A program made the position numbers and the translations under genes. DNA of 64,000 bases. It comes from Sediminispirochaeta bajacaliforniensis DSM 16054 (lineage in GTDB: Bacteria; Spirochaetota; Spirochaetia; DSM-16054; Sediminispirochaetaceae). Below, piece by piece: positions 1 through 20,650 of this stretch. How positions within the stretch are numbered: the stretch's first letter is position 1; the number at the start of each line of letters is the position of its first letter. The notes beneath the pieces were generated by a model. That model saw only the letters and a list, made by a program, of their open reading frames with translations, did no database searches and was not told where the DNA came from. The stretch spans positions 62,001-126,000 of the forward strand of contig NZ_KB899419.1 in assembly GCF_000378205.1 (NCBI RefSeq), written 5' to 3'.

Positions 1-1
1 A

Positions 2-1707: not shown

Positions 1708-1709
1708 AC

Positions 1710-2570: not shown

Positions 2571-2602
2571 AAGTTGTGGTTATAAAACATAAGGAAAATG
2601 AA

Positions 2603-5962: not shown

Positions 5963-7752
5963 GCGCTTCTGACTATATTATCAAATGCAGCATAACTCCT
6001 CCGCAGCTTGTATATATTCATGAAAGAACCTTAGACAATGAGTTCTGCATTGAGTTCGAAAAGGTTCCTGTGGCTTATGGCCATAATGACGCGGAAGCTA
6101 TTAAGGATACGAGTTTTATTAAGGAAGAACGATCGGGTGCGGCAATTTATATCAAACTTGGCCTGGGCGATGAAATCGATGACTTATGTACTGCCGAGCT
6201 TGCCGCACAGCTAAGTTTTACAACACTTGAGGGCGACGGCTGGGAAATGGAGTGGTCTGCCATAAATAAATGTTTTATTATTTATCCGCCGGATGATTTC
6301 AATTTTCCGGATTCATATCGCGCTTCTTTCAGAAGTAACGGATTTTACACAGAGGCAAAAGAGGGCGCTGCGACACTTGAAGCATATGTTGTAAATTTTC
6401 CTGATGTAAGCACAAAAATAGTGGCAGTAAACATCTACAAACGCTATCCGATTGCGTTTGACTATTTTAGGGCGGAACCAGAGCCTGTTGAGATTGGCGG
6501 TGAGACAACACTTTCATGGCGCGTGCTTAACGTAAAAAAGTGTTACATCGATGATATCGGCCAGGTTGATACCGAAGGTTCCATGAACGTGACCATTGAT
6601 TCCCCAAAGAACTTTCTTCTAAAGGCTGAAAACGATATGGGGATAACTGATCAGACTGAAAAGAAGGTTGGCTGCGTGAAGCCTTCCATTCAGTTCTCAG
6701 CGGATTCAACCTGGTATCATGAAGGAGAAGAGGTGACACTGCGCTGGGAGGGTACCTCTGCCGTGTCGGTACAGATTAGTCCGGCTCCTGGAGAAGTTCC
6801 TGTTTCTGGGAGCAAAAAGGTGGTCCCTCACTCGCCAACCTTTACGGCCACAGCCAGCGGCTTTGACGGATTTACCCCCTATGCGGCCATGGCCTCTTTG
6901 ACACTGAAAAAAACTCCCTGGAAATGTGAAGGCACGATAGCTGGCGTCGATTTGTCAAAGGACACCATGAATACTGGCAGGAGAATTTGGGAGTATAAGG
7001 GGAAAAGTTATGTATTTTGCAACCGAATTTTGTATGAAAGCGAGGATGTATTACATTGGCAGCAAACGGCGAAATTCGAACTGTATGATGGCATGATCCT
7101 CAAAAGCTGCGCAACCACAGTTGTCGGTGATACTTTTTTGGTGCTTGGCATAAAAAACAAGAACTCGACATTTGTTCAGTCGGCAACCTATGATTTTTCC
7201 CAAAGGAAATGGCAGATAACTGATGCCTTGCCGGATGGCGACGATACTGGCGGAATACTTTCAGGCATACATGATCAGCCTTATTATGCGCATCCCGAGG
7301 GGCCGATGGTTCTGTTTTATACCCCGGAGGAGATGATGGGGGGAAAATGGAATCTGGTTTTTTATCTTAAATACCCTGATGTGGATGCATGCGATATAAG
7401 CCCTTTACGGGAATATCTGTATGCAGGTCTGCATGACGGCCGGGAGCATCAGCTTGTGATAAGGCGTATCAAGCCTAAAGACAGGCAGTGGCTTGATGTA
7501 GGTCGGCTTGAGGTGGCAGACGATGAGTGGTTTTGCCTGGTCCCGACAAAGGGAAAACTTTTTCTGCTTACAGCAGAACAGATGCTCTGCGTGGATGATT
7601 TGGAATCTGTATCACCCTTTCATCCGGAACTGGATAAGGATTATCGCCCATGGACCGGAAGTAAAAACAACATGCCGTTTCTTGTAACAAAGAGCGGCGT
7701 TTTATGGTGTTTAAAAAATTATATTAAGGAAGGAAAAGATGAGTTACCCTGA
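5959..7752 (+). CDS. Protein with two Ig-like domains and a C-terminal propeller-like region (accessory locus gene 5)
   Basis: 597 residues, ATGA overlap with gene 4 and an AGGAAAA ribosome site. The N-terminal ~160 residues are unassigned. Two beta-sandwich repeats follow: the first centred on EPVEIGGETTLSWRV (about residues 174-188), the second on EGEEVTLRWEG (about 254-264). Both have the G-E-x-x-T-L-x-W pattern of bacterial Ig-like folds. The last ~270 residues contain repeated short beta segments such as YESEDVLHWQQ, typical of BNR/kelch-type propellers. No signal peptide is visible, so if the protein is exported it uses another route. Such domains usually bind proteins or sugars; here that is inference. 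The end overlaps gene 6 by 14 bases. Confidence 0.8.
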   Translation: MSASDYIIKCSITPPQLVYIHERTLDNEFCIEFEKVPVAYGHNDAEAIKDTSFIKEERSGAAIYIKLGLGDEIDDLCTAELAAQLSFTTLEGDGWEMEWSAINKCFIIYPPDDFNFPDSYRASFRSNGFYTEAKEGAATLEAYVVNFPDVSTKIVAVNIYKRYPIAFDYFRAEPEPVEIGGETTLSWRVLNVKKCYIDDIGQVDTEGSMNVTIDSPKNFLLKAENDMGITDQTEKKVGCVKPSIQFSADSTWYHEGEEVTLRWEGTSAVSVQISPAPGEVPVSGSKKVVPHSPTFTATASGFDGFTPYAAMASLTLKKTPWKCEGTIAGVDLSKDTMNTGRRIWEYKGKSYVFCNRILYESEDVLHWQQTAKFELYDGMILKSCATTVVGDTFLVLGIKNKNSTFVQSATYDFSQRKWQITDALPDGDDTGGILSGIHDQPYYAHPEGPMVLFYTPEEMMGGKWNLVFYLKYPDVDACDISPLREYLYAGLHDGREHQLVIRRIKPKDRQWLDVGRLEVADDEWFCLVPTKGKLFLLTAEQMLCVDDLESVSPFHPELDKDYRPWTGSKNNMPFLVTKSGVLWCLKNYIKEGKDELP

Positions 7753-8401
7753 TATCACTATTAGCAAAATGTGTCCGCTGATTATACAGGATGCTGATTA
7801 TTGCAGACAGTATGGCTGTGCCACACTGGAACGTGGAGGACGTATTGAAATCCTTGTGGATTGTTCTTTCGGAATAAAAAAACTGGTAAAGGAAGATGAT
7901 GGTGAGGTTAATGACAATCCCGATATCATTTTGAAGGGGTTTGACGGGAGTATTGGAAGCCCCGGTCAAAGCGGAGAAGACGGAGGCGCGGGAGCGAAAG
8001 CGGAAATCATTATAGACGATCTTCAGAGTTCGCTGAACGTGCATGTTTATGGTGGCGGCAGTGGAGGCCAGGGGGGCCGTGGAGGAGACGGTGGCTCCGG
8101 CGGAGACGGGGCTTACGGTGCTGACGGCGGCGATGGCGGAGACGGCGGAGACGGAGCATGCGGCGGGACCGGCGGCAGCGGAGGAGAGCTGATCATAAAA
8201 TATAAAACGAGCAACGCGAGTAAAATAACTGGAAAGGAATTAAGCTCATGTGGAGGAGAGGCCGGAAGAGCCGGTTCTGGCGGCGCCGGAGGCCATGGGG
8301 AACATGACGGACGGACCGGCAGAAAAGGGCGTAAAGGCGAGAACGGTCAGGACGGCGGCAGGGGAAAACTTACTATTATAAAAACAAAAGAGGAGGCATA
8401 G
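7739..8401 (+). CDS. Collagen-like Gly-X-Y repeat protein (accessory locus gene 6)
   Basis: 220 residues. The ATG at 7739 lies inside the end of gene 5 with AAGGAAGG eight bases upstream. The N-terminal ~65 residues (Cys at 11, 22, 27 and 41 or nearby) are unassigned. Glycine then recurs at every third residue in three blocks, about 67-86, 105-150 and 172-212, with triplets such as GGD, GGS, GAD, KGR and KGE. The blocks are separated by short beta-like strands (AEIIIDDLQ; GELIIKYKT). Unlike classical bacterial collagens it has very little proline, so a stable triple helix is uncertain; a polyglycine-II bundle is an alternative. The protein ends in a basic tail. It is probably a fibrous or spacer component. 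Confidence 0.85.
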   Translation: MSYPDITISKMCPLIIQDADYCRQYGCATLERGGRIEILVDCSFGIKKLVKEDDGEVNDNPDIILKGFDGSIGSPGQSGEDGGAGAKAEIIIDDLQSSLNVHVYGGGSGGQGGRGGDGGSGGDGAYGADGGDGGDGGDGACGGTGGSGGELIIKYKTSNASKITGKELSSCGGEAGRAGSGGAGGHGEHDGRTGRKGRKGENGQDGGRGKLTIIKTKEEA

Positions 8402-8404
8402 TGT

Positions 8405-10057
8405 ATGGATTATCAGGCTGGAAAATATGTATCAAGAGTTCTGGATTTTTCAGATCCGAAAGACGCAAAAAAGGTCCTTGACAAACTTGGGGGCGAGGAT
8501 TTTTTAAAGAAAGAATATCCAAAGGTATATCAATCGTACCTTAAAACTGTAGCAAAACATAAAAGGGTAAAAAAAACTGAGAAAGAGGCCGCTGACGGGC
8601 TTCAAAGCGGGGCCTTTGCGGGAGCAATTTCGATTGCGGCAAGTAATAATAAAGTAAAAAAAAATCAGCTTGATGGAACTGAAGAAGGTCTGATAAGCGG
8701 CGCGACATCAGTTCAGGGACATACCGACTGGAGCAGGGCCATCGTTTCAGGGCATATGAAAAACCTGACACAGGACACTATCATTCATACATTTTTCAGA
8801 AAACTTTCTAATGAAAATTATTATGAGACCGTTCAGCATCGGGATGTTAAGGATATTGCTTCCTTTGGAGAGCAAAGGATACAGAATTTTATTGAAAGCA
8901 CAGCTATCCTGAAAGAAGACGGAACCATGGAAAGTCTTGAAGCATATAGCGATGAATTTACAACAAAGGGGAGCGCCTCAGCTGTCGTGTATATGAACCT
9001 TAAGGCCCCGAGATCAAATGTGGGAAATAATCCGATTATCATGATGTACGCGAGAAGCCCGGATCACGGAGAAACCGTTGATTATAATTACCCTAATAAT
9101 AAGATTATCTCGGGAACGGACAGCGTCAAAACAATCTTTCCTGTAAAGGGAACGATAACATTTAGCGACGATTTTAAACCTCTAAGGTATAGTACAAAAA
9201 GCTCGAGCCATACACCGGAGCTACAGTACAAAGGAAAAGGCGTCTGCCCCTATAGTTATACCCAGGAACAAATAGCCTCCTGTTTTAGAATATCGGAGGA
9301 CAATCCGCAGGTAGTGGAATTTGAGCTAAATGAAGACTGGAATCACAACCTTGATATAAGCGACTATACTTCAGCCCATGATGCGGATATTGCGCTTTTG
9401 TTTTCGTTCTTTTTCACGGTTCAAATTGCAGGTTTTAAAAAAGAACAGGATGTAGGAATTTGTATTTATTCCACAAACACATTGGAAATGGGGCAACGTT
9501 ATTATGAGTCGGCAGATGATACGAATCTTTGTTTGCCGTATGTGTATATTAAGTGGGGCTGTTTTTCAAAAGATACCCTGGTTTCCATGGCTGATGGAAG
9601 TCTAATGGCTGTCACCGAAATCCAACAGGGAGCTCAGGTAATGAGTGAGAATGGGGAAATACTCACTGTAAGGGATGTAGTCTCTGGTGACGAAGAAGAA
9701 CTTTACTGTATACGCACAAAAGGACAAAAGCTTATTCGACTAAGCGCTACGCATCCTCTTAAAACAACAGAAGGCCCTGTCCGGGCACAAGATCTAAGGC
9801 CTGGAATGGCATTGCTCTGTCAGGATGGTACGGAAGATGAGATTCTTTTTAATTATACGGTGCCTTATAATGACAAGGTATACAGTCTGATCACCGAGGG
9901 CAAAGGGCAATGGCTTGCGGCTAACGGAATATGGGCCGGCGATTTTGACAGTCAGAATAATTTTGTGCTGTCTTCCAAAGGTGAGGAACCATTAAGCGCT
10001 GAAGTACAGGAACTTACAGAAGAGTTTGACAGGCTGATAGAGCATTTGCAAAAATGA
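8405..10057 (+). CDS. Protein with a C-terminal Hint (hedgehog/intein) domain (accessory locus gene 7)
   Basis: 550 residues, ATG at 8405 with AGGAGG eight bases upstream. Residues 1-385 are unassigned and without a signal peptide; a Gly/Ala-rich segment lies around 65-80. A Hint domain starts at Cys386 (CFSKDTLVSMADGS, the block A pattern), carries block B with His450 (RLSATHPL), and ends at about 505-513 with LAANGIWAGD. In splicing inteins the last block ends in His-Asn followed by Cys, Ser or Thr; here Gly-Asp is followed by Phe, so splicing is unlikely while N-terminal thioester cleavage at Cys386 stays possible. A 37-residue tail ends the protein. Its stop overlaps the MBL gene (ATGA). 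Confidence 0.88.
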   Translation: MDYQAGKYVSRVLDFSDPKDAKKVLDKLGGEDFLKKEYPKVYQSYLKTVAKHKRVKKTEKEAADGLQSGAFAGAISIAASNNKVKKNQLDGTEEGLISGATSVQGHTDWSRAIVSGHMKNLTQDTIIHTFFRKLSNENYYETVQHRDVKDIASFGEQRIQNFIESTAILKEDGTMESLEAYSDEFTTKGSASAVVYMNLKAPRSNVGNNPIIMMYARSPDHGETVDYNYPNNKIISGTDSVKTIFPVKGTITFSDDFKPLRYSTKSSSHTPELQYKGKGVCPYSYTQEQIASCFRISEDNPQVVEFELNEDWNHNLDISDYTSAHDADIALLFSFFFTVQIAGFKKEQDVGICIYSTNTLEMGQRYYESADDTNLCLPYVYIKWGCFSKDTLVSMADGSLMAVTEIQQGAQVMSENGEILTVRDVVSGDEEELYCIRTKGQKLIRLSATHPLKTTEGPVRAQDLRPGMALLCQDGTEDEILFNYTVPYNDKVYSLITEGKGQWLAANGIWAGDFDSQNNFVLSSKGEEPLSAEVQELTEEFDRLIEHLQK

Positions 10058-11532
10058 ACAATAGTAAAAATGACCAGTATTGGAGCTGTACCGCATATGC
10101 CTCCAGGTATGTGTACGAAGATGAAGGGAAAATGCGAAGCGGCATTGAGTTCGAGGCTATAAAAGCGGAAAAGGTTTCCGCCTTTTTGAGACGGGATAGG
10201 GAGGCACTGAAACACACTGATGATGAAAATTTTGCTTTTCTCCTTGATCACTATCTGGAACACGGGACGGAAGGGGAGCTCTTCTATGAGAAAAAGCTTG
10301 AGCATTTCGGGGACGGGGAGGCCATATATTACATTACCGTCTGGTTTGATGTCCCCGCGGAAGCAAAGCAGTTTGAATTAAACAGCTGGTACCGGATTGA
10401 AAAAGGCATCAGTTTTGCCTGCGTCTTGGAGCCTTTTATACCGGTTGATGTACCTGAGCCTTCAACATGCATGATTTCAAAAATAGATCAGGAAGACAGC
10501 AGAACGCTTGAGAAACTCTTTGCTATAAAGAATTCTGAAGGAATAGATTCTTCTGCCGACTCTGATGGCGGAATGCTAAAAACAATTTCAGCCGAAGCTC
10601 GTTTTTGGGGAGCGGCGTTTTATTATGTCGGTGCTGCCTTATGTGTCGGATTACATTCGGCAAGGCTTTCCAAAGGATTAGATATCTGGGTACCCAATTG
10701 CATCGAGGGCTATTTTGATTTCGGATTCAATGATGTAGAAAGAGGTAATGCCCATGTTAGGGCGAATTTTCCCTATGCCGCTGCCAATCTTGAGAACATC
10801 AAGGAGGAGCTGCGACAACGTCCTGCCAAAGTTATTATTATCTCCCATTGGCATGCGGATCATATCAGTATTGCCAGACATCTCTTTTTACCAGAGTATA
10901 ATCCCTTTTGGCAATGGTCCAGATGGTATGTGCCTGAAGAGTCCTCACCTGTGCCTATTCTTATAGCCAGGAAGATCAGGGGAAGTGGAGCGTGTATGAC
11001 GGTATTAAAGAATGTGTTCCCGGCAGATAATACTGTTTATCAAATAGATAAGAATCCCTATCTGGCTTACGGTAAAATTGATGCCTTTAATCCTGTAAAT
11101 GAAAGGGGGCGTCCCAGCAAGGATGGACAACATGCTCACCATCACGGAATTTATGCGAAAATCCAACTTGTTGATATAAGCGGAAATTTTTTTAGATCAC
11201 TGCTTTTAGCAGGAGATTGCACGTATTCGGGGATTCCGATAGCCCAGAAAAAGGTTCACTATCTGCAGGCCTGTCATCATGGCGGTGAATATGCTCTGCC
11301 TCCTTCCACTGGAGACAGAAAACAACACCTTCCTGTGCCTGCCGATAAAAACGGCACTGTAATTTATTCGGCAAATGGATCAAGGCATGGACATCCAAAT
11401 CCTGCCATTATGCAGGAACATGCTGAAAAAGGATGGATAGCCGAGTACAGGACAGATTACTCTGTTATTGACAATGGGGACAGGTCCCATACAGAAGGAA
11501 GATGGTCTGTCACGTATGGGGAAGTTCTTTAG
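10054..11532 (+). CDS. ComEC-like metallo-beta-lactamase-fold hydrolase with unusual N-terminal half (accessory locus gene 8)
   Basis: 492 residues. The C-terminal ~270 residues have the MBL fold: SHWHADH (His265, His267, Asp269, His270), a later LLLAGDC metal-ligand strand, CHHGGEYALP, and ANGSRHGHPNP. The last two elements match the MBL domain of ComEC/Rec2 DNA-uptake proteins and of stand-alone relatives. No ComEC membrane domain is present. The N-terminal ~200 residues are not recognised. A nuclease or phosphoesterase activity is plausible from the family; the substrate is unknown. It is the last gene of the accessory operon and ends three bases from the convergent operon. The ribosome site is weak, consistent with coupling to gene 7 through the ATGA overlap. 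Confidence 0.85.
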   Translation: MNNSKNDQYWSCTAYASRYVYEDEGKMRSGIEFEAIKAEKVSAFLRRDREALKHTDDENFAFLLDHYLEHGTEGELFYEKKLEHFGDGEAIYYITVWFDVPAEAKQFELNSWYRIEKGISFACVLEPFIPVDVPEPSTCMISKIDQEDSRTLEKLFAIKNSEGIDSSADSDGGMLKTISAEARFWGAAFYYVGAALCVGLHSARLSKGLDIWVPNCIEGYFDFGFNDVERGNAHVRANFPYAAANLENIKEELRQRPAKVIIISHWHADHISIARHLFLPEYNPFWQWSRWYVPEESSPVPILIARKIRGSGACMTVLKNVFPADNTVYQIDKNPYLAYGKIDAFNPVNERGRPSKDGQHAHHHGIYAKIQLVDISGNFFRSLLLAGDCTYSGIPIAQKKVHYLQACHHGGEYALPPSTGDRKQHLPVPADKNGTVIYSANGSRHGHPNPAIMQEHAEKGWIAEYRTDYSVIDNGDRSHTEGRWSVTYGEVL

Positions 11533-11535
11533 TAT

Positions 11536-11907
11536 TCAGCAGAACTCGGCCCATGTCAAAAACAAACGTTTTCCAGCATTGGGTTCTTCGGTTCTGAATC
11601 GATAAGCAACCAGCCATCCCATGGTGTTTCTATCCAGAACAAGACAGAGTTCCTGCTTTTTGGAGAATGGCCTTTTTTTGAGCCGGTACCTGTATCTTTT
11701 TTGTCTGAGCAGAATGAAACGAATCATGGAATAGCATACAGGCACAATCAGTTCCAGTTTATTCAGGCCAAGATAGTGTACAGGAAAAATCGTGTTTTTA
11801 AACTGGTCCGACTGCGATAGTCTGCAATGAAGGCCCTCAACGCTTTTCAGCACCGGGAAAAGTATAAGACGAATCAGGATCTCAATATTATCATCCGGCG
11901 GCGCCAT
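11536..11907 (-). CDS. Small protein of unknown function, third gene of the DUF2589-like operon
   Basis: 123 residues, ATG four bases after the stop of the DUF2589-like gene upstream, so clearly part of that operon. I do not recognise it. It has a central stretch FPVHYLGLNKLELIVPV that recalls the VSVPLLAL...PL segment of the two preceding proteins, then a strongly basic section (RQKRYRYRLKKRPFSKK) and no signal peptide. It may be a shortened or diverged relative of the neighbours, which would need a profile comparison. It ends three bases from the convergent MBL gene, leaving no room for a separate bidirectional terminator. Confidence 0.6.
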   Translation of the reverse strand: MAPPDDNIEILIRLILFPVLKSVEGLHCRLSQSDQFKNTIFPVHYLGLNKLELIVPVCYSMIRFILLRQKRYRYRLKKRPFSKKQELCLVLDRNTMGWLVAYRFRTEEPNAGKRLFLTWAEFC

Positions 11908-11911
11908 CTGC

Positions 11912-12463
11912 TTATTTTACTGTTATGGCGGTTAATGAAGATTCCACTATCATTTTAAGCGCTTCCGTTGGTTCGGCCCCGGAGGCTTCAATCCTGATAT
12001 TGAGTTTTCCGCGCTCGGAATAGCTATTTTTCCTTGTTGTGTTCTGGCTAAGGCTGCCTGAAAGACTGAGATCTACAAAAGAACTCAGTACTCCGCCCAC
12101 GCTGGCGTTCCCTTTAAGGCTTCCGTCTGTCTGCTGAGTCTCATCCTGAAGGGTGGACACATCAAACGTAAACTCGTTAACAACCTTGTTAATATTTAGA
12201 AGCGGCGGCTGAACCAGGGCCAGCAACGGGACGGATACCGTGACCTTTTTCGTGGCACCGTTTTCATCTGTAAAATCAAAATCAAGCTTTTGAGGCTCAG
12301 TTTCAGCGTATTTCTTGATGGTCTCAAGATTCATCTTTGAAAGTTCGGCATGCGCCTTGGCTGCCGCTATCAGCGGATCTCCTATAAGCTTTGAGAGAGG
12401 CAGGGAACGTAAAGCCTTTGTAGTTTTTGAGACATCTTTTGGTACTGGTGATGTATCAGACAT
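11912..12463 (-). CDS. DUF2589-like protein, copy 2
   Basis: 183 residues, ATG at 12463 with AAGGAG behind it, overlapping the end of the upstream paralogue by 8 bases. The N-terminal LPLSKLIGDPLIAAAKAHAEL resembles the helical opening of DUF2589 proteins (S-L-x-x-L-I-G-x-P-L). A beta-rich middle follows with VTVSVPLLALVQPPLLNI (about residues 73-90) and a C-terminal strand region with many Ser/Thr. The VSVP-L-LAL-x-x-PL-x-I segment is shared with the next protein, which shows common descent. The function of DUF2589 is unknown to me. Family assignment is from memory and should be checked by profile search. Confidence 0.75.
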   Translation of the reverse strand: MSDTSPVPKDVSKTTKALRSLPLSKLIGDPLIAAAKAHAELSKMNLETIKKYAETEPQKLDFDFTDENGATKKVTVSVPLLALVQPPLLNINKVVNEFTFDVSTLQDETQQTDGSLKGNASVGGVLSSFVDLSLSGSLSQNTTRKNSYSERGKLNIRIEASGAEPTEALKMIVESSLTAITVK

Positions 12464-13067
12464 TTTCTACTCCTTGATCATCAAGCGGTTCAGCAATACT
12501 AAACTCGCTCAGTGCATTAATATATGTTCCCAAGGCATCGGGAACATCAATTGACCCAATATTAATCTTGACCCCTATAAAGCCGCAGTCGCTTTTTTCG
12601 TTTTCATTTCTGATTTCTCCGATAAAGCTCTTTGGCTCTTCCACCAGAAACCAAGGACGTTTGCCCGCATGCCATTTATTTTTGTCTTTGGTCCTCATTT
12701 CCTCTTCGGTTCCGATCCCGAAGATTTTTTCAGGCTCAATACTGGTAATCTTCATTTTAAAGTCAATTTGCGCATCATGGATCATGAGGGGATTCATGGG
12801 AAGAGCCGCGAGGGTGGGAACGCTTACCCGGTATTTTTTTATTTCTCCATTGATTTCACGTTCCTGAATAAACTCAAGCCGGTACAGATTATCCGATTTG
12901 TTTTCATCATTTAGTATATTGCCTTCATCATCAAGCCCCTGATGTCCAAATCCCATTTGAAGGATAGAACTGAGAAAAGAACGGGAGGCGTGTATTTGAG
13001 CCTTTATAATGGAATCTACCGACGCAAGAATTGCTTGTGCAAGCGAAAGCTTTGTATAATCTGCCAT
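12456..13067 (-). CDS. DUF2589-like protein, copy 1 (first gene of operon)
   Basis: I place the start at the ATG at 13067 (MADYTKLSLAQAIL): AGGAG lies at the proper distance, while the longer frame to 13130 would cover the promoter. This gives 203 residues. N-terminal helix with LAQAILASVDSIIKAQIHAS, then a beta region with YRVSVPTLAALPMNPLMI (about residues 80-97) that aligns with copy 2. A distinct insert mentions KNKWHAGKRPWFLVEEP, followed by an acidic C-terminus. The two genes are tandem paralogues on the strand opposite to the large accessory operon. A partner role for that operon is suggested only by their position. Confidence 0.75.
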   Translation of the reverse strand: MADYTKLSLAQAILASVDSIIKAQIHASRSFLSSILQMGFGHQGLDDEGNILNDENKSDNLYRLEFIQEREINGEIKKYRVSVPTLAALPMNPLMIHDAQIDFKMKITSIEPEKIFGIGTEEEMRTKDKNKWHAGKRPWFLVEEPKSFIGEIRNENEKSDCGFIGVKINIGSIDVPDALGTYINALSEFSIAEPLDDQGVENV

Positions 13068-13107
13068 CATGCTCTCCTGATTTTTAAATTTTTCTATGAT
13101 TGCTATT

Positions 13108-13135
13108 ATTATACATGTTCGATAGGACAAAGCAA
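13108..13135 (-). promoter_or_regulatory. Sigma-70-type promoter for the DUF2589-like operon
   Basis: Read on the minus strand, TTGCTT (13135-13130) and a perfect TATAAT (13113-13108) are separated by 16 bases. Transcription would start near 13,100, leaving a leader of about 35 bases before the ATG at 13067. It supports the shorter start of the first DUF2589-like gene. Confidence 0.55.
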
Positions 13136-13238
13136 GTTATATAGAGTAAATGCGGCTTGCTGAAAAAACCATTAAGCCGCTTGTTTGGGAACGATTACTA
13201 TCTGCGGAGAATGACACTCAGGGTCGAAAATACAAAGG

Positions 13239-13318
13239 CCGCTACCAAATTGGTAGCGGCCACCCTAGGTAGGAAGTTGGTACATAGAAGCCAACTAAAA
13301 AGTACTACGTTTTGATAC
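13239..13318. repeat. 80-base hairpin repeat, copy 1
   Basis: The copy opens with a perfect 10-bp inverted repeat that begins two bases earlier (GGCCGCTACC at 13237, loop AAATT, GGTAGCGGCC), then has a second stem AGTTGG...CCAACT around a 10-base loop. Copy 2 begins 154 bases downstream and shares both stems with many substitutions elsewhere. Confidence 0.6.
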
Positions 13319-13392
13319 AAAAAACAAGAAATTCAGGCGATAAATGAAGATTTATCTATCTACACAAGAAAACTCATCTACCGAAGAAAAAA

Positions 13393-13472
13393 CCGCTACC
13401 GGATCAGTAGCGGACACAATGGGTGAAAAGTTAGTACGTAAAAACCAACTAAATGTTACTACCATTTGACTC
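13393..13472. repeat. 80-base hairpin repeat, copy 2
   Basis: It aligns without gaps to copy 1 from CCGCTACC to the TTTGA near its end. The first stem is CCGCTAC/GTAGCGG with a changed loop. The second stem is AGTTAGT/ACCAACT with one mismatch. Retention of both stems despite loop changes hints that structure, not sequence, is conserved. Confidence 0.6.
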
Positions 13473-13507
13473 TATAGTCAAGGTCTCAAAACATCGCTAT
13501 TTCCTGA

Positions 13508-13627
13508 ATAGCCCGGATATTTTTAGTCCTCCAATGGGGAGCATTGCTGATAGTACCATACATTGTTGAAGTACTTCGCCACATCATCGATGCTTATAAA
13601 GAAGGCTATGAAGAGGTAGCAGTATGA
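13508..13627 (+). pseudogene. Possible C-terminal remnant of a gene overlapping the next start
   Basis: An open frame of 39 codons without ATG follows a stop at 13505 and ends ...DAYKEGYEEVAV with TGA at 13625, overlapping the ATG of the next gene by four bases (ATGA). Such an overlap is typical of an operon junction, so this may be the tail of a deleted gene. A functional small peptide from the TTG at 13544 (27 residues) is the alternative. The evidence is thin. Confidence 0.25.
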
Positions 13628-14121
13628 GAAAGTTACTATTCATCACCATAATCACCCTTCTTTCATCCCCAATGTACTCACAGTGGTTAGGATTCGAGTT
13701 TCTGTTTGAGACAGGAATGGCCAACGGGAAGTTTGGCGAAATGGAAACTGACAAAGAGCGTGAATATCTTTCAGTTTATGATTTTGATGTGACATACATT
13801 GAGCTTAGCCCATACTGCTGGTTTTTTGAACGTTTCTATGTCGGGGGATCAATGACGGTCCAGATGTTACAGAATAGAGGCTTGTTTTCAGATGGCTCGA
13901 TGTATAATTTCTTCTTGAACTATAATCCTACGTTTATCAATTACAATTTTGAAATGGGATATTCCTATGGGTTTGTTACGTTATTTTATTCCCATGATTG
14001 TGCTCATCCACAGGATACGTACCCCTATAACCACCGAGTGACCACTCTCTGGGGAGAGGGCAGCGTTGATCGTTTTGGGATACGATGTATGGGCAGCATC
14101 GGGAAGACTGGAAAAAGATAG
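13624..14121 (+). CDS. Exported protein of unknown function, possibly a small outer-membrane barrel
   Basis: 165 residues with a clear signal peptide (MRKLLFITIITLLSSPMYSQ, cleavage after about residue 19). The mature part is rich in aromatic residues, alternating and glycine-containing strands (YVGGSMTVQM; FINYNFEMGYSYGFVTLFYS), as in small outer-membrane beta-barrels. GAGGT precedes the ATG at moderate distance. The stop lies 11 bases from the 3' end of the oppositely oriented tRNA-Val gene. The last ~30 residues look less barrel-like, so the 3' end may have been cut and fused at the tRNA junction. I cannot name a family. Confidence 0.6.
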   Translation: MRKLLFITIITLLSSPMYSQWLGFEFLFETGMANGKFGEMETDKEREYLSVYDFDVTYIELSPYCWFFERFYVGGSMTVQMLQNRGLFSDGSMYNFFLNYNPTFINYNFEMGYSYGFVTLFYSHDCAHPQDTYPYNHRVTTLWGEGSVDRFGIRCMGSIGKTGKR

Positions 14122-14131: not shown

Positions 14132-14204
14132 TGGGCGATGAGGGACTTGAACCCCCGACATCCTGCTTGTAAGGCAGGCGCTCTCCCAGCTGAGCTAATC
14201 GCCC
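14132..14204 (-). tRNA. tRNA-Val (anticodon TAC)
   Basis: Reading the minus strand, the acceptor arms GGGCGAT and ATCGCCC pair over seven bases, the D-arm contains GCTCAGCTGGGAGAGC, the anticodon loop is CTTACAA (anticodon TAC, valine), and the T-arm contains GTTCAAG. The length is 73 bases with A as discriminator; the CCA end is not encoded. All invariant positions I checked are present. Its 3' end faces the accessory region, which is the usual orientation for island integration into tRNA genes. Confidence 0.97.
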
Positions 14205-14241
14205 GAAGTGAGCAAAACCTACCATGAATCTTTTTATTGTG

Positions 14242-15687
14242 TCAAGCAATATCGCTGTCGGTTTCCATGTCCTGGCCTCGTAACCAGATCTCCTTCGGTT
14301 TTCGTATGCCTCTCCGTTTTGAGATAAGAAAGTAGCTCACGAGGACGAAGAGCAGGTAAGCAAAGGCAACGGCAACGGCCAGCCAAAACAGAATGGGGTT
14401 CCCATGTGTTGCACTGTATGCAGGAAGATTGATGATCATGATAAAGGGTATTGCAAAGACAAATGTCAGTCCCGATGAGAACATATAGTCACGGGCTACC
14501 GGAGTTTCAAAGTCGGGATCGATGACGCGCAGCAGAGCCAAACCTGTCGGCATGGTACCGGTTGAGACCCCAAATATTACCAGCATCCTCTGGAAACGAT
14601 GATCGGTGAAAATCCTCGAACAAAACCACGGCACACCGATAAGCGCTAGGACGCCGCCGATGGTGCTGAGAATCAGAATCGGGATGATGTATTTGCCGAC
14701 CACCACAAGGCTGATGGCGCCTATTGCCGCGGTGACCATAAGGTCGACGGAGAATCCCGATATTCTGGTGAGAGTCCCGTTGTCAAAGGTGTATTCGAAT
14801 TTTGCCCCCTTTGCGAAGGCCTTAAAACCGAGAGCCACGATTGCCGAAAAGACAAAATTGATCCCCCAGAGATTTGTTGCAAGATCGACTCCAAGGGGAC
14901 CGGCAAAGGCAAGCAGGAGGCCGAGGCCTTTCAGAAGGAAATAACTTATAAGGTAAACAACCATCACCAGGGCAATGTGATAGGTAAATGGATCGATTGC
15001 CTCTGTCTCAGTCGACATAAAGCTTCCGACTGGCCGTTCGACACCTTTTTTCATGAGTCCAGAACGAATTCTACGACTGTTAAGGAGTTCGATCTGTTCC
15101 TTATTCAGCCAGCCTCGCTGTATTGCATAGTTAATCAGAAAAACGCCACCGAAGCAGGCCCAAAGAAACCCGATGGCGGCAAAGGTAAGGCCCACCGTTC
15201 CCGCTCCGGTAAAGCCCATCGGCTCCCATCCCGAGCCGATGGCGAAGGCTTGTCCCGGTCCCAGTACGAAACCGAGAGGGAGCAGAAAGCCGAAAGCCGG
15301 GAACAGACCGGGAAAAATTGTCTTTATCAGCAGGAAGGTAACCAAGAGACCGAGAAAAGCCTGGAGTGCATACTGTGAAAGAACAGAAACTGAGGTAGCA
15401 AAAATGGTTCCTCGGCTCTTTCTTACCTTGCCATTCCCCTTTCGTAGGGTCATGGCAATAAAACTGATATTCAAGAGGTGGTACACCAGCATGCCAAAGC
15501 CCTCGTTTGACAGGCCATATTGGGGAAGCACAAAGTTGTAGAGAATAAGGAGGATGAATCCGGCCACCAGTGCATTCGGAATGAGAAACCGTTGAACAAA
15601 TCGGATACGGGTCCTAATAAACGTTGCAATCAACAAGGCCGCTGAAATGATTCCGATATTGATAATGAGTGACCAGGGAAAATTCAT
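14242..15687 (-). CDS. GltS-family sodium/glutamate-type symporter
   Basis: 481 residues with about a dozen hydrophobic segments, starting at an ATG behind AGGAGG. The N-terminal SLIINIGIISAALLIATFIR, the conserved FLIPNALVAGF and the re-entrant-loop-like GPGQAFAIGSGWEPMGF followed by GAGTVGLTFAAIGFL fit the ESS/GltS family. Members import glutamate with Na+ across the inner membrane. The protein is somewhat longer than E. coli GltS (~400 residues), with a longer hydrophilic loop (about residues 200-230). A different carboxylate substrate is possible. It stands as the second gene after the periplasmic protein upstream on the same strand, 39 bases apart. Confidence 0.85.
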   Translation of the reverse strand: MNFPWSLIINIGIISAALLIATFIRTRIRFVQRFLIPNALVAGFILLILYNFVLPQYGLSNEGFGMLVYHLLNISFIAMTLRKGNGKVRKSRGTIFATSVSVLSQYALQAFLGLLVTFLLIKTIFPGLFPAFGFLLPLGFVLGPGQAFAIGSGWEPMGFTGAGTVGLTFAAIGFLWACFGGVFLINYAIQRGWLNKEQIELLNSRRIRSGLMKKGVERPVGSFMSTETEAIDPFTYHIALVMVVYLISYFLLKGLGLLLAFAGPLGVDLATNLWGINFVFSAIVALGFKAFAKGAKFEYTFDNGTLTRISGFSVDLMVTAAIGAISLVVVGKYIIPILILSTIGGVLALIGVPWFCSRIFTDHRFQRMLVIFGVSTGTMPTGLALLRVIDPDFETPVARDYMFSSGLTFVFAIPFIMIINLPAYSATHGNPILFWLAVAVAFAYLLFVLVSYFLISKRRGIRKPKEIWLRGQDMETDSDIA

Positions 15688-15726
15688 TGAAGCCTCCTAT
15701 GGTTCTCAGTATTATGGCATAGAATA

Positions 15727-16518
15727 CTATTTTACGGAAACGCGGTAACGATTTTCAAACCAATTTTTAAGAGCTTCAATACGATAATAAAACGAATCGG
15801 TCTTTTTTCGCTCCAGACCGAAAAAAGAGATGCTGTTAACACTGCAGACACCGTAAAAAAGAATCCCTTCATCCACGGGATAAAGAACAATACTCAGCGA
15901 GAGATCACCGGGGGAAACCATTGAGATGAACTTATACTTCATCTTAGTCATGTTCGACATTTCAAGTAAAAGAGTCTTACCGTCCCCTTCAAAATGGGTT
16001 GCATAGATATTTGTCCCAAAGGTGAGATCGGTTTGGCGAAGGGTCAGGTCGATGGATCTCGGCACCGTTTCGAAATGGGGGTCCGGCAGCGGCCTTCCTG
16101 ATTCGGGGCTGTCGATGACCGTTGATTCGGTAAAGAGCGTCCTCATTTTTTCCCTCGACGCCGAATAATACTCGATACCCTCCATTGTACTGACTGAAAA
16201 AAGGATCTTTGCAGCCTGCTCATAGGCCTGTTCTTTTGATGCACCCTGGGGATAGGGCATCAGCGATAGGCTTTCAACCCCGAGGGTCGGATCAAGGGAG
16301 CGTACTTTGTCCGAAAGGGTCTGTGCCGAGGTGAAATCCAGGATATAGCGTAAGTCTGCTTCATCCTTGGAGAAGAAATAGCGAGTGAGGGGTTCCCCAG
16401 CTTTCAGCTTTTCCGCATCGTTTCCCGTAAGATAGGGAACGGCCTCAAAAAGTGTCTGCGCACCAAGGTTCAAGGTTGAAATCAATGCCAGCGTAACCAT
16501 GATAATCTTCTGTTTCAT
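15727..16518 (-). CDS. Periplasmic protein of unknown function (DUF6675-like)
   Basis: 263 residues. A signal peptide is clear: MKQKIIMVTLALISTLNLGAQ. The mature protein is soluble and mixed alpha/beta, with the segments YFFSKDEADLRYILDFTSAQ and GTNIYATHFEGDGKTLLLEM. I believe it belongs to a spirochaete family called DUF6675, but this is from memory. Nothing in it suggests an enzymatic centre. It is transcribed away from yggS from an 84-base divergent spacer and lies just upstream of the symporter gene. Confidence 0.75.
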   Translation of the reverse strand: MKQKIIMVTLALISTLNLGAQTLFEAVPYLTGNDAEKLKAGEPLTRYFFSKDEADLRYILDFTSAQTLSDKVRSLDPTLGVESLSLMPYPQGASKEQAYEQAAKILFSVSTMEGIEYYSASREKMRTLFTESTVIDSPESGRPLPDPHFETVPRSIDLTLRQTDLTFGTNIYATHFEGDGKTLLLEMSNMTKMKYKFISMVSPGDLSLSIVLYPVDEGILFYGVCSVNSISFFGLERKKTDSFYYRIEALKNWFENRYRVSVK

Positions 16519-16602
16519 GAGAGGAAAGATAATACAGAGCTGCAGGCGGTTTCAATCATCCCTCCTCTTTTATTTCATTTTCTCTCGTGATATGCTCGTT
16601 GT

Positions 16603-17307
16603 ATGGAAGGTATGGACGGAATGATTGCTGGAAATATTGCGAGAATTCGAGATGAGATTGCCGAAGCTGCCCATAAAGCGGGACGAGATCCCGGGGACAT
16701 ACAGTTAATGGCAGTAACGAAAACACACCCCTTCGAAGATGTTCTTGCCGCTTATGAGGCCGGGATTCGTCTCTTCGGTGAAAATCGTGTTCAGGAAGCT
16801 GTCGGTAAGTACACCGTACCCCTTCCTGCCGATATGGGATTACACATGATCGGTCATTTACAAAGCAATAAGGTGAAACAGATTGTTCCCCTTGTTCAAT
16901 GTGTGGAGTCAATCGACAAAGTCGCCACTGCCGAGGAGCTCAATAAAAGGGCCCAGGCGGCCGGGAAGCATATCGACATCATGTTTGAAGTTAATACCTC
17001 CGGAGAAGTCTCGAAAAACGGTTTTTCCGAATATGAAGAGCTGAGCGATGCCTTGGGCGCGACGCTTGAATTGGATGCCCTTTGCGTAACCGGTCTTATG
17101 ACCATCGGACCTCTTGGTGGAGATGAGGGGCAGATCAGAAAGGCCTTCATCCTTCTTCGTTCAATGTCCGATCGCCTTTCGGTGGAATACCCCCAGGCAA
17201 AGCTCCGTGAACTTTCGATGGGGATGTCAGGGGATTTTCCTATCGCCGTTGCCGAAGGAGCGACAATCGTACGGGTGGGAACTGCAATATTCGGGAGACG
17301 GGACTAA
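16603..17307 (+). CDS. yggS: YggS-family pyridoxal-phosphate homeostasis protein
   Basis: Up to 234 residues. The PLP-binding lysine lies in MAVTKTHP near the N-terminus, followed by FGENRVQEA, the phosphate-side HLQSNKV, LMTIGP and a C-terminal SMGMSGDFPIAVAEGATIVRVG, all hallmarks of the family. These fold-type III proteins bind PLP and affect B6 and amino-acid balance without a known reaction. Three in-frame ATGs lie close together; the one at 16621 (MIAGNIARI) has GAAGG about ten bases upstream and gives the usual family start, so the true protein may be 228 residues. A small exported protein follows after five bases. Confidence 0.95.
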   Translation: MEGMDGMIAGNIARIRDEIAEAAHKAGRDPGDIQLMAVTKTHPFEDVLAAYEAGIRLFGENRVQEAVGKYTVPLPADMGLHMIGHLQSNKVKQIVPLVQCVESIDKVATAEELNKRAQAAGKHIDIMFEVNTSGEVSKNGFSEYEELSDALGATLELDALCVTGLMTIGPLGGDEGQIRKAFILLRSMSDRLSVEYPQAKLRELSMGMSGDFPIAVAEGATIVRVGTAIFGRRD

Positions 17308-17311
17308 GGAG

Positions 17312-17719
17312 ATGACCCGTCCCCTTGTTGTGCGAATTGTTATTTTTCTCTTTCTTCTTTGTTTCGTTGTGACGTTGCTGCCTGCCGATGATACTGAAGA
17401 TACTGCAAGCGATGAATCCGATTACGAACCTTATAGTGCATCAGAATTTCCTCAATGGGCCTTGGACCTTCGGCGTGCCGAGGCTATTTTCTTTGGATCG
17501 CTCCCGTTTACCCTTCTTTTATCGACCCTTGGGTTTGATTCGTACAACTATGTTGCCCACGATTTCGATACCGATTATGTTCCCTTCTATTCGACGGGAA
17601 GCGGGGAATACTTGGTAGATAGTGAAGAACGAACCTATCGGATTCTTGCGGCGGTCGGTGGATCACTCTTGCTTGCCCTTGTCGATTATATCATCGGAGC
17701 CTCTTCCGGTGGGCGTTGA
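17312..17719 (+). CDS. Small exported or membrane protein of unknown function
   Basis: I take the ATG at 17312, preceded by AAGGAG, not the longer frame that runs back through yggS. The 135-residue product has an N-terminal signal or anchor (RIVIFLFLLCFVVTLLPADD), an acidic linker, then a second hydrophobic segment (AIFFGSLPFTLLLSTLGF) and a third near the C-terminus (ILAAVGGSLLLALVDYIIG). It is probably an inner-membrane protein. It is coupled to yggS in front and the pseudouridine synthase behind. I do not recognise a family. Confidence 0.75.
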   Translation: MTRPLVVRIVIFLFLLCFVVTLLPADDTEDTASDESDYEPYSASEFPQWALDLRRAEAIFFGSLPFTLLLSTLGFDSYNYVAHDFDTDYVPFYSTGSGEYLVDSEERTYRILAAVGGSLLLALVDYIIGASSGGR

Positions 17720-18668
17720 GAAACAAGGTTGCCGCTGGGACCATCTCGTTCGGGATATTCCGAGTGACGGTGTCAGAATCGATCGTTATGTGAGCGAGGT
17801 TGCCGGACTCTTTCCCCGCAGCCAACTGCGCCAGCGCAATCCCCGTTTTTTTATTAATGGAAAGGCGGTCAAGGCATCGTCGCGGGTATATACGGGGGAT
17901 CGTATTGCATTAATGTACGAGGATCAGCCCGAGCCATCCTTCGAGGCGCAGGCTATCGACCTCTCTATTATATATGAGGATGAGCACGTCATTGTCATCG
18001 ATAAGCCTCAGGGCCTTGTCGTTCATCCTGCGGCCGGGAACTGGTCAGGGACTCTCGTACAAGGCCTTTTGTATCATTGCCGCGAACTGGGAGAACGGTT
18101 CGGCGAGGATACGGTACGCCCCGGCATCGTTCACCGTCTCGATAAGGATACCTCCGGGGTCCTAATAGCTGCAAAAGATCCGGAAACCCGTCAGTTTCTT
18201 GCGGAGCAATTTGCCAGCAGACGGTGTAAAAAGCGTTATATCGCCCTTGTGAAGGGAGCCCTCTCCAATGCAACGGGCCGTATGGAAAGCGGCATCATCC
18301 GCGACCCGAAGAACAGGAAGCGTTTTACCTGGACTATGAGTGGAGGAAAGCCTGCGATAACGGAGTACACCAGGCTTAGGCGAGGAAATGATTGTTCTCT
18401 TGCTGCTTTTAACTTACTTACCGGTAGGACCCATCAAATTCGGGTCCATACGCTGATGCTTGGCCACCCGGTCATTGGTGATCCCATCTACGGCAGAAAA
18501 AGCACCCGTTTTCCTGACCTTGGTTTGATGCTTCACTCCATGAGCCTTGAAATCGTTCTGCCGGGGGAGAGGGAGCCCCGCCGCTTTATCGCTCCTCTTC
18601 CCGAACGCTTCCGAGCTCCCCTTCAGCAGTGCTGGGGGCTTGACTACCGAGCCGTAGATCCGGATTGA
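17709..18668 (+). CDS. RluD/RluC-type 23S rRNA pseudouridine synthase
   Basis: Isomerises specific uridines in large-subunit rRNA. The start is uncertain; I chose GTG at 17709, overlapping the previous gene by 11 bases, because an earlier start would extend into it with no recognisable domain. The product is about 319 residues: an S4 RNA-binding domain (RIDRYVSEVAG...INGKAVKASSRVYTGD, about 18-65) and the catalytic domain with HRLDKDTSG, where Asp145 would be the nucleophile, and LLTGRTHQIRVH. The 3' end overlaps the convergent MBL gene by 83 bases. Which uridines it modifies cannot be read from the sequence. Confidence 0.92.
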   Translation: MGVEKQGCRWDHLVRDIPSDGVRIDRYVSEVAGLFPRSQLRQRNPRFFINGKAVKASSRVYTGDRIALMYEDQPEPSFEAQAIDLSIIYEDEHVIVIDKPQGLVVHPAAGNWSGTLVQGLLYHCRELGERFGEDTVRPGIVHRLDKDTSGVLIAAKDPETRQFLAEQFASRRCKKRYIALVKGALSNATGRMESGIIRDPKNRKRFTWTMSGGKPAITEYTRLRRGNDCSLAAFNLLTGRTHQIRVHTLMLGHPVIGDPIYGRKSTRFPDLGLMLHSMSLEIVLPGEREPRRFIAPLPERFRAPLQQCWGLDYRAVDPD

Positions 18669-19209
18669 AGAGCTTTTCCGTTTTGAGGGTGGTCGGCGAG
18701 CCGTGGCCGGGAAAGATGAGCATATAGTCGGGGAGGGGGAGAATCCTTTTCTGTATCGATTTGAGCATGATGGCTCGTTCTACGGCCCCTTCGCTTGATC
18801 CGATTCTACCTGCGGCAAGAATGTCTCCGGTGAACAGCATGTTCTCAATTCGGTAAACCAGATGATCTCCAGAATGGCCCTTGACATCAATGGGAACCAC
18901 TTTGATCCCCTCGAAATCGTATTCCTTTCCATCCTCAAGAACATGCGCCGATCGACCGAGGACCACCGGGTGCTTTCCGTATATCTCCGCATCATAGATT
19001 TTTCCGATGGTACCAAGCCCCTTTACATGACTTTCGTGGCTATGGGTCACCAGAATGTAACGAACATAGTAGCCGTTTGATTCGATCATGTCCAAAAGCT
19101 CCACATCCATCACACCGGGATCAATAAGGAGTGCATTCCCGCCCCCCTCGGGGCCGATCAGATAGGTATTGGAAAAACCGACGACGGCAAAATGGAAAAA
19201 GAGCTTCAT
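18586..19209 (-). CDS. MBL-fold hydrolase with altered metal motif
   Basis: 207 residues, glyoxalase II-like architecture: LLIDPGV, then THSHESH (His56, His58, Ser60, His61), GHSGDH, FTGDILAAG and PGHGSP. In the canonical HxHxDH motif the Asp binds the second metal; here Ser60 occupies that place, so a mononuclear site or lost activity is possible. The other ligands are present. The C-terminal ~30 residues are disordered-looking and lie in the overlap with the pseudouridine synthase gene, so they may be poorly constrained. It is coupled by an ATGA overlap to the upstream pentapeptide-repeat gene. Confidence 0.88.
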   Translation of the reverse strand: MKLFFHFAVVGFSNTYLIGPEGGGNALLIDPGVMDVELLDMIESNGYYVRYILVTHSHESHVKGLGTIGKIYDAEIYGKHPVVLGRSAHVLEDGKEYDFEGIKVVPIDVKGHSGDHLVYRIENMLFTGDILAAGRIGSSEGAVERAIMLKSIQKRILPLPDYMLIFPGHGSPTTLKTEKLFNPDLRLGSQAPSTAEGELGSVREEER

Positions 19210-19802
19210 AATACCGCTTCCCTTCCGAAACTTGCTTCCTCATAGTTCGAATACTTGAAATTAACGCCCGTTCTCTCGGTCGCGTAGAAATCGGCCTTTT
19301 TCAGATTGCAGTCGATGAAGGTGACATTACTGAGCTTCGCATTGGTAAAATTTGAGTAGTAGAGATCCGAATCGTCGAAGATGGTATGTTCGGCCTTTAT
19401 CCCCAGAAAATTTGTGTGGATGATATCGGATCCGGAAAAATCGCAATCAAAGAAGGTTGAACCGGCAAAGACCGTGTAGGTGATGTTGCATCCCGTAAAA
19501 CGACATTTCTCAAAGGTTGAGAAGGGGAAAAAGCAGAGCCGAAACCGTGAGCCACTGAAATCAATGTTACGAAAATATGCTTCGGAAAAATTGCAAGTGG
19601 TGAGGGTTTTCTCTCTCATATCCAGTTCCCGGAGGATGATGCCCGAGAAACTGATATCTTTTATGTACCTTTCTCGATCGAGAATCTCCTTGCAGCGTTT
19701 GGTGCTTGCGTCCCTGTCGGGGCTATGCTTCAGACAGGTGGTTTGACCGGTAGCCGAGAAAGAGTTGCAACCCGGCTCACTACATATGGAATTGGAAAAC
19801 AT
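19206..19802 (-). CDS. Pentapeptide-repeat protein with N-terminal Cys-rich motif
   Basis: 198 residues. The N-terminus has CSEPGC...CLKH, a possible four-ligand zinc site. From about residue 48 onward, A/S/T-x-F/L-x-x five-residue units recur (CNFSEAYFRNIDFSGSRF; CDFSGSDIIHTNF; SDLYYSNFTNAKLSNVTF), which build a right-handed quadrilateral beta-helix. Such proteins are often protein-binding or DNA-mimicking; no function can be assigned here. The stop overlaps the start of the MBL gene (ATGA), so the two are made together. No membrane segment is present. Confidence 0.85.
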   Translation of the reverse strand: MFSNSICSEPGCNSFSATGQTTCLKHSPDRDASTKRCKEILDRERYIKDISFSGIILRELDMREKTLTTCNFSEAYFRNIDFSGSRFRLCFFPFSTFEKCRFTGCNITYTVFAGSTFFDCDFSGSDIIHTNFLGIKAEHTIFDDSDLYYSNFTNAKLSNVTFIDCNLKKADFYATERTGVNFKYSNYEEASFGREAVL

Positions 19803-19829
19803 AGTTTTAGAGTAATGGAAAACTCTGGC

Positions 19830-19858
19830 TTGTCAATACGCCGTGAAGGTTTTACTAT
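19830..19858 (+). promoter_or_regulatory. Candidate promoter for murI, possibly leaderless
   Basis: TTGTCA (19830-19835) and TACTAT (19853-19858) are 17 bases apart. A start site seven bases after the -10 element would fall at 19865, the A of the murI ATG. There is no Shine-Dalgarno sequence before that ATG, which fits a leaderless message. Confidence 0.4.
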
Positions 19859-19864
19859 ACGGCC

Positions 19865-20650
19865 ATGAAGAATACCGGCCCGATTGCCTTCTTTGACTCC
19901 GGTATCGGAGGATTGCCATACCTTCAGTGGGTACGAAAGAAGCTTCCCAACTTCTCATATCGTTACCTTGCCGATAGGGCGAATTTTCCTTACGGCGAAA
20001 AATCCATTGAAGAGCTGGGTGGGCTTATCATAGGCACCATGGAACGCTACATCGAACGTGTCGATCCCTCGATTGTCGTCGTCGCCTGTAATACAGCTTC
20101 GGTAACGGCGCTTCAAAAGCTCAGAGATACCTTTTCCGTTCCCTTCGTAGGGGTTGTTCCGGCGATAAAACCTGCCGCCGCTCTTTCTTGTACACATACC
20201 ATTGGATTACTTGCTACAAAGCGTACCGTGGAGGATCCCTATACCGACAATCTTGTCAGGCTTTTTGCCGATGGTTTTCAGGTCGAACGATTCGCCGGTG
20301 TCGATATCGTGGATTTTGTCGAAAACCGTCTCCTTGATGCCGATCCTCTTGAAATTCGTGAGGTTCTTGCCCCTGCTGTTGCCTTTTTTTCGGAAAAAGA
20401 GGTTGATACCTTGGTTTTGGGGTGTACCCATTTTCTTCACATCAGGGATGAGATTGTCGAAGCCTTCGGCGGCCGGGTGAAAATCGTCGATTCCATCGAA
20501 GGGGTCGGAAGGCACGTTATCCAAATGGTTTCAGAATACCATGGAGGCGGGGGCGGCAGTGAGTTTTTTGTCAGCGGTATTGAAGGGGATGTCGATACAT
20601 ACCGCCGTTTTGCCGATGCCTATGCCCTCGGCTGGGGCGGCGTTGTGTAA
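19865..20650 (+). CDS. murI: Glutamate racemase
   Basis: Makes D-glutamate for peptidoglycan from L-glutamate in the cytoplasm. 261 residues, normal length. FFDSGIGGLPYLQ opens the protein, and the two catalytic cysteines are present in ACNTAS (Cys75) and GCTHFL (Cys187), with NFPYG between. It begins a plus-strand gene run: its stop overlaps rsgA (TAATG), followed by mutS2. No ribosome site is visible upstream. Confidence 0.96.
   Translation: MKNTGPIAFFDSGIGGLPYLQWVRKKLPNFSYRYLADRANFPYGEKSIEELGGLIIGTMERYIERVDPSIVVVACNTASVTALQKLRDTFSVPFVGVVPAIKPAAALSCTHTIGLLATKRTVEDPYTDNLVRLFADGFQVERFAGVDIVDFVENRLLDADPLEIREVLAPAVAFFSEKEVDTLVLGCTHFLHIRDEIVEAFGGRVKIVDSIEGVGRHVIQMVSEYHGGGGGSEFFVSGIEGDVDTYRRFADAYALGWGGVV

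Follow-up and report, generated by a model that had tools for sequence, protein, structure and literature searches.

Comparison with known small RNA systems

The origin of new bacterial small RNAs (sRNAs) has mostly been inferred, since such RNAs change fast. Tandem sibling sRNAs, for which OmrA/OmrB, AbcR1/AbcR2 and PrrF1/PrrF2 are examples, are alike in structure and each has a terminator; OmrA and OmrB are 88 and 82 nt long and the AbcR pairs are >65% identical (PMC4211561). Phages also produce short antisense RNAs. OOP of phage lambda is a 77-nt antisense RNA of the early region with its own promoter and a hairpin terminator that overlaps a coding gene (PMC5869508, PMC12197685), and the 68/69-nt antisense RNA sar of phage P22 prevents translation of a phage gene from starting (PMC12197685). 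DicF, a 53-nt sRNA of the Qin cryptic prophage, is classed as acting in trans (PMC12197685).

The locus described here lies in a 64,000-nucleotide stretch of the Sediminispirochaeta bajacaliforniensis DSM 16054 genome (the window). It probably encodes tandem sibling sRNAs that stem from a phage antisense RNA and now seem to act in trans; we infer their transcription, start sites, pairing and target. As in OmrA/B, AbcR and PrrF, the window has two related short predicted RNAs in tandem with a terminator each. Unlike those systems, the pair is unrelated to them in sequence and has an evident phage origin. Hfq provides another contrast with the tandem siblings: the Pfam family (PF17209) has no match in either of the two Sediminispirochaeta genomes, compared to matches in 5 of 14 control genomes, and a divergent Hfq is possible. 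Phage copies of the element resemble OOP in that their predicted short antisense RNA overlaps an early-region coding gene and has a hairpin terminator. They differ in that OOP overlaps the C-terminal part of cII, whereas the overlap of the Sediminispirochaeta element is with the N-terminal part of a small gene, which is dead in the window. Unit sequences are unrelated to sar, and pairing is compared here by duplex energies. Like DicF, the window pair represents small RNAs apparently kept from a defective prophage; unlike DicF, its sequence and context are unrelated, there are two tandem copies and a protein fossil is still readable.

Anatomy of the two-unit repeat

Two units (13234-13328 and 13388-13482) are identical at 67 of 95 positions (71%), with a start-to-start distance of 154 bases; the top score among 199,395 random ungapped pairs of 95-base stretches from the same window is 46/95. 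They lie in a 493-base gap (13131-13623). With ORFs counted from 100 aa upward, this gap is the longest uncovered stretch of the window (the next is 223 bases), while two other gaps exceed it when the cut-off is raised to at least 150 aa. These results confirm the initial annotation of a two-copy repeat, 154 bases apart, in a long non-coding gap. Its claim that both stems are kept holds for the core stems and fails for the outer pairs of the G+C-rich stem, which has 11 pairs in one unit and 9 in the other. The start that it gave for the interval, 13152, falls at an unrelated third hairpin outside the block that is common to a second species (which ends at ~13226). That separate hairpin (13152-13180, GCGGCTT..AAGCCGC) lies upstream of DUF2589 genes.

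Each unit, in minus-strand direction, comprises boxes in sigma-70 position, an inverted repeat (AGTTGG..CYAACT), a linker, a hairpin (CCGCTACY-N5-GGTAGCGG) and T-rich sequence, in that order. A terminator scan returned two intrinsic terminators, both on the minus strand and both coincident with these units (shuffle mean 0.5). The predicted small RNA of unit 'up' (13387-13450, minus strand) is ~64 nt long as drawn, with an inferred 5' end, is supported by its fold and scores 84.8 bits with R1, a covariance model built from six sequences of which this unit is one. Its terminator hairpin (13393-13413, minus strand) is followed by a T-run (13387-13392) and has the same stems in both species. The inverted repeat (AGTTGG..CTAACT, 13429-13450, minus strand), which has a G-U pair, may be either a 5' hairpin of the RNA or a start-site operator. 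Upstream lies a promoter-like sequence (TTGACT-17-TAACAT, 13453-13481, minus strand) that matches 9 of 12 positions, in a region where the number of such sites is not above that of shuffles. The second species has TTGACT-17-TAGTAT at this position. In unit 'dn', the predicted RNA (13229-13296, minus strand; ~68 nt as drawn, 5' end inferred) has a fold z of -3.98 and an R1 score of 87.6 bits, also as a seed member. It comprises an inverted repeat identified from fold and alignment (AGTTGG..CCAACT, 13275-13296, minus strand) and a terminator hairpin (13237-13261, minus strand) with a T-rich tail (13229-13236). The promoter scan of the region returned nothing for this unit; a weak promoter-like sequence (TTGTTT-17-TACTTT, 13299-13327, minus strand) was recognized by eye.

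Minus-strand folds have z of -3.98 and -2.42 and plus-strand folds z of -5.72 and -1.76, so that energy alone cannot choose the strand. T-runs and G-U changes do choose it: both core-stem changes between the units (columns 7/20 and 53/59 of alignment A5) give G-U pairs on the minus strand and A.C mismatches when read on the plus strand. Covariation is slight: both partners have changed in 2 of 16 pairs, and 33 of 500 shuffles score equally high. The sRNA interpretation rests on evolutionary rates, synteny and a codon null. Linkers between the structures are of four types (CACCC, TACCTA, CACCTA and AACCAC), and ACC is kept in all six R1 model sequences. The inverted repeat begins 2-3 nt past the -10 box in the units and overlaps it in a further copy in the second species (L028), which means that the usual start point would cut the 5' arm of the repeat. 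For that part alone, a DNA operator at the start site may be the alternative.

Synteny in a second Sediminispirochaeta species

The only other Sediminispirochaeta genome compared (G001; one contig of 4,653,970 bases) contains the same pair. A DNA search of 60 genomes, including the genome of the window itself (G000), found the block in these two only (E 1.4e-97 for G001); matches in the other genomes had E of 0.02 or worse. The pair has the same order in G001 and lies beside the same tRNA-Val, with homology that covers ~13226-13497 and stops at both ends. Orthologous RNAs are identical at 62 of 64 aligned positions ('up') and 66 of 68 ('dn'), or ~97% across species.

The tRNA-Val gene (TAC; 14132-14204, minus strand) is the integration site that adjoins the pair. 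From this gene rightward, the core genes (window 14132-21000) match G001:2659264-2666132 at 94% identity; the 3' end of the tRNA recurs as a 42-base copy at G001:2703991-2704032. Between tRNA-Val and this copy, G001 has a ~38-kb insert (G001:C1:2666061-2704032, L163-L165). A tyrosine integrase (Phage_integrase, 6.6e-14) stands at the start of the insert, which also includes a recT-like gene whose viral ortholog is Pfam RecT; we call the insert prophage-like on account of these two genes. The T-arm of the integrase-side tRNA copy is changed or replaced, and the displaced 3' end lies at the far edge of the insert. In the window the pair stands ~0.63 kb from tRNA-Val, and in G001 it is ~0.86 kb beyond this edge. 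On the other flank of the pair, G001 sequence from ~2705357, with a GGDEF/EAL gene, corresponds to G000:C14:55482-58126 at 93%. The ~17 kb with DUF2589 and Hint-like genes here thus splits what only ~0.2 kb separates in the G001 genome. Because the pair and its order are unchanged beside this tRNA-Val and the flanks differ, the common ancestor most likely already had the pair at this position, with mobile DNA gained and lost around it.

A decayed phage gene on the plus strand

Read on this strand, the pair consists of two tandem 5' fragments of an 89-codon phage gene. A decayed fragment in unit 'dn' (13229-13369, plus strand) is recognized by homology to the 89-aa protein and has one TGA inside; a second in unit 'up' (13370-13468, plus strand; NSSTEEKTATGSVAD..) has lost its start codon and was identified by eye from its likeness to MSSTDIKTATG. 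The window reads NTKAATKLVAATLGRKLVHRSQLKSTTF-stop-YKKQEIQAINEDLSI and, in a different frame, NSSTEEKTATGSVADTMGEKLVRKNQLNVTTI-stop. The frame is not maintained across species: stops interrupt it, an indel precedes the second fragment and the start codons are not common to both.

A protein search of 60 genomes found five full-length relatives of the 89-aa protein in G001: two beside recT at 99-100%, one at 69% and two at 44-45%. The decayed pair also appears among the relatives, with two TGA codons in G001 and one in the window. Other genomes in this search gave four weak matches (E 0.03-0.07), and the genome of the window has no intact copy of the gene. Viral contig IMGVR_UViG_3300035548_000648 encodes the protein at 73%, directly upstream of recT, and a second viral contig has the same sequence as G001 copy L139. 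Three intact copies of the 89-codon gene lie upstream of recT. The protein has no match in the phage collection or in Pfam, and PHROGs returned only phrog_19423 (E 0.087). The copy L028 has the same minus-strand anatomy as the units (TTGACA-17-TAGATT), and its plus strand is an open 89-codon gene that starts MSSTDIKTATG. This isolated phage-gene copy (L028/L031, G001:C1:455339-455605) lies between transposase-like ORFs and tRNA-Arg. Its ORF is open and its antisense strand has a promoter, an inverted repeat and a terminator; it possibly represents an intermediate stage.

Antisense signals in coding copies

Antisense signals opposite codons 1-42 of six coding relatives were compared with a codon null in which the protein is fixed and codons are redrawn from phage codon usage (3000 draws per copy). 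An antisense terminator as good as the observed one occurred in 39 (V_L131), 32 (S_L138), 22 (S_L137), 20 (S_L132), 41 (S_L139) and 29 (S_L140) of the 3000 draws. The antisense terminator is thus kept beyond the synonymous-codon null in 6/6 coding relatives, which amount to ~4 independent cases at most because L132/L137 and L139/L140 are near-identical pairs. Sense strands of the coding copies have no such terminator. In S_L139 and S_L140, the stem sequence differs, and a hairpin with its T-run stays in nearly the same place. An antisense promoter as good as that observed was drawn 12 times for V_L131 and eight times for S_L138, compared to 1500, 1500, 2130 and 2208 times for the other four copies; the strong promoters of those two are TTGACA-17-TAGTAT or TAGATT. 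Terminator and promoter together occurred in 0, 0, 12, 12, 24 and 25 draws. Two of the coding copies look like complete antisense RNA genes and the other four keep the terminator only. An antisense RNA opposite an intact gene, which is the OOP/sar arrangement, is predicted in the phage and G001 coding copies and not in the window, where the gene has decayed.

Distribution and known families

R1 was searched in 297 genomes of the class. It matches both units in the window's genome and five places in G001, three of which are in the seed; prophage copies in G001 outside the seed score 34.8 and 33.9 bits. Single matches in six other genomes (24.4-27.9 bits) have E values expected by chance. At present the element is known from two genomes plus a single independent phage contig and is restricted to the genus. 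A palindrome-plus-T pattern matches 89 stretches in genome contigs, scattered over phyla, and eight in viral contigs; one of the viral matches is a genuine relative by protein, and those in genome contigs are taken to be chance or ordinary terminators. From 4227 families of Rfam 15, only tRNA reached its gathering cut-off in the window, with best scores in the block of 21 bits for nse_sRNA (cut-off 75) and 21.1 bits for RsaOG (cut-off 50). The element was not recognized in the literature searched (titles and abstract starts), and this search found no paper on a Sediminispirochaeta small RNA. Judged from sequence, the element appears to be a new, genus-restricted case of tandem sibling sRNA anatomy that has a readable origin and is outside all Rfam families tested.

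The initial annotation had treated a lack of both further copies and a transcript as counting against it; the covariance-model search that it proposed found copies elsewhere. It had also named three possible identities. A small RNA is favored by minus-strand terminators, further copies and slow evolution of the RNA parts only. A recombination site of the integron attC type is not supported, with the core motifs (GTTRRRY, RYYYAAC) absent from both strands of 13100-13560. A REP-like element is rejected because it needs many dispersed copies and the genome has only these two units.

Evolutionary rates and alternative explanations

Comparison with G001 shows 3 differences over the 132 aligned positions of the two RNAs, with 1 gap column, and 0 over the 64 positions of their stems; the promoter region of unit 'dn' (13297-13333) is also unchanged (0/37). 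The remainder of the block differs at 15 of 99 positions with 12 gap columns, which is the rate (p 0.88) of fourfold-degenerate sites in seven neighboring core ORFs (137/929). Fisher tests separate the RNAs from the rest of the block (p 3.3e-4) and from fourfold sites (p 4.6e-6), with the partition between RNA and rest drawn after the alignment had been inspected. Short intergenic gaps of core genes are also slow (5/253), and the RNAs are not slower than those. Against all 705 non-ORF core positions, of which 452 are probably coding, the difference is not significant (p 0.17). The RNA sequence appears to be under selection with no ORF maintained, although the intergenic control (5/253) counts against this conclusion. 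The same rates bear on whether the locus is merely a dead phage fossil, in which two decayed gene fragments would retain palindromes from coding sequence and serve no function today. Decay of a phage gene is clear on the plus strand and the region adjoins an integration site, but a dead fossil should drift evenly, and the RNA parts do not drift at the rate of the rest of the same block; we consider this explanation unlikely.

It is decidedly unlikely that the palindromes act at the DNA level, as phage-derived operators, protein-binding palindromes or a replication site with incidental transcription. Overlap of the first repeat with the predicted start would fit this explanation, as would a G+C-rich palindrome that is nearly unchanged in all six model sequences, but only the minus strand has T-runs after the palindrome, core-stem changes are minus-strand G-U pairs, and hairpin plus T-run stay in L139/L140 despite a different stem sequence. 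Conserved small peptides encoded by the plus strand are very improbable. NTKAATxLVAATLGRKLVHRSQLKSTTF is common to both species, but the start codon is not, one change is K to S, and an indel and stops break the frame; a candidate peptide over unit 'dn' (MTLRVENTKAATKLVAATLGRKLVHRSQLKSTTF) was rejected because it begins outside the shared block at a start codon that G001 lacks, and one of its changes is K to S. The position of the pair between tRNA-Val and the DUF2589 operon, on the same strand, would suit a leader or attenuator of that operon or terminators of tRNA-Val transcription. Such roles are extremely improbable and are contradicted by synteny in G001, where the pair occurs without DUF2589 genes and ~38 kb is inserted between it and tRNA-Val.

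Proposed origin and action of the RNA pair

Tandem sibling sRNAs remain the preferred explanation, with a computed basis in the further copies, synteny, relative rates, antisense terminators beyond the codon null and the decayed ORF. Phages of this genus would have supplied the ancestor, an antisense RNA encoded within the 5' end of a small early gene. A phage relic at tRNA-Val would then have duplicated in tandem before the species split; the homologous units lie side by side, and orthologs are ~97% alike compared to 72% for the units. The protein reading would have decayed under continued selection on the RNA, its terminator and the position of its promoter, and the outcome would be two minus-strand small-RNA genes that each have an intrinsic terminator and a promoter position of their own. 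It is an evenly balanced possibility that the sRNA pair has been caught after birth from a virus: a phage antisense RNA would have been captured at a tRNA site, would have duplicated and separated from its host gene, and would have stayed under selection across a species split.

Leftward transcription that ends at the terminator would yield RNAs of ~45-70 nt, and a start at the inverted repeat would give them a 5' hairpin. The unpaired ACC-containing linker is most likely the pairing region for mRNAs in trans and may pair with ribosome-binding sites. Antisense action on the phage gene was considered and rejected: duplex energies with its mRNA are not above shuffles, except for a marginal pairing of W_dn with V_L131 (15/200). 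Pairing at chance level suggests that the siblings probably have other targets now. One genus shows coding phage copies, an isolated copy in which the gene and the antisense RNA signals are both intact, and a pair in which the gene is dead and the RNA apparently kept. One route, by which a phage antisense RNA becomes a stand-alone RNA of the host, is thereby open to direct test. A spirochaete genus without detectable Hfq also gains a concrete candidate small RNA.

Flanking features

The window has additional features around the pair. Positions 1-13130 belong to a genomic island of ~17 kb (G000:C14 about 58127-75225), between the pair and the GGDEF/EAL gene, with two DUF2589 proteins, a weak Hint-like match and a glycine-rich protein that is absent at this place in G001. 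A 165-aa ORF that adjoins tRNA-Val (13624-14121, plus strand) has no Pfam match; it has an 82% identical copy at G001 3124339-3124900 and may have moved.
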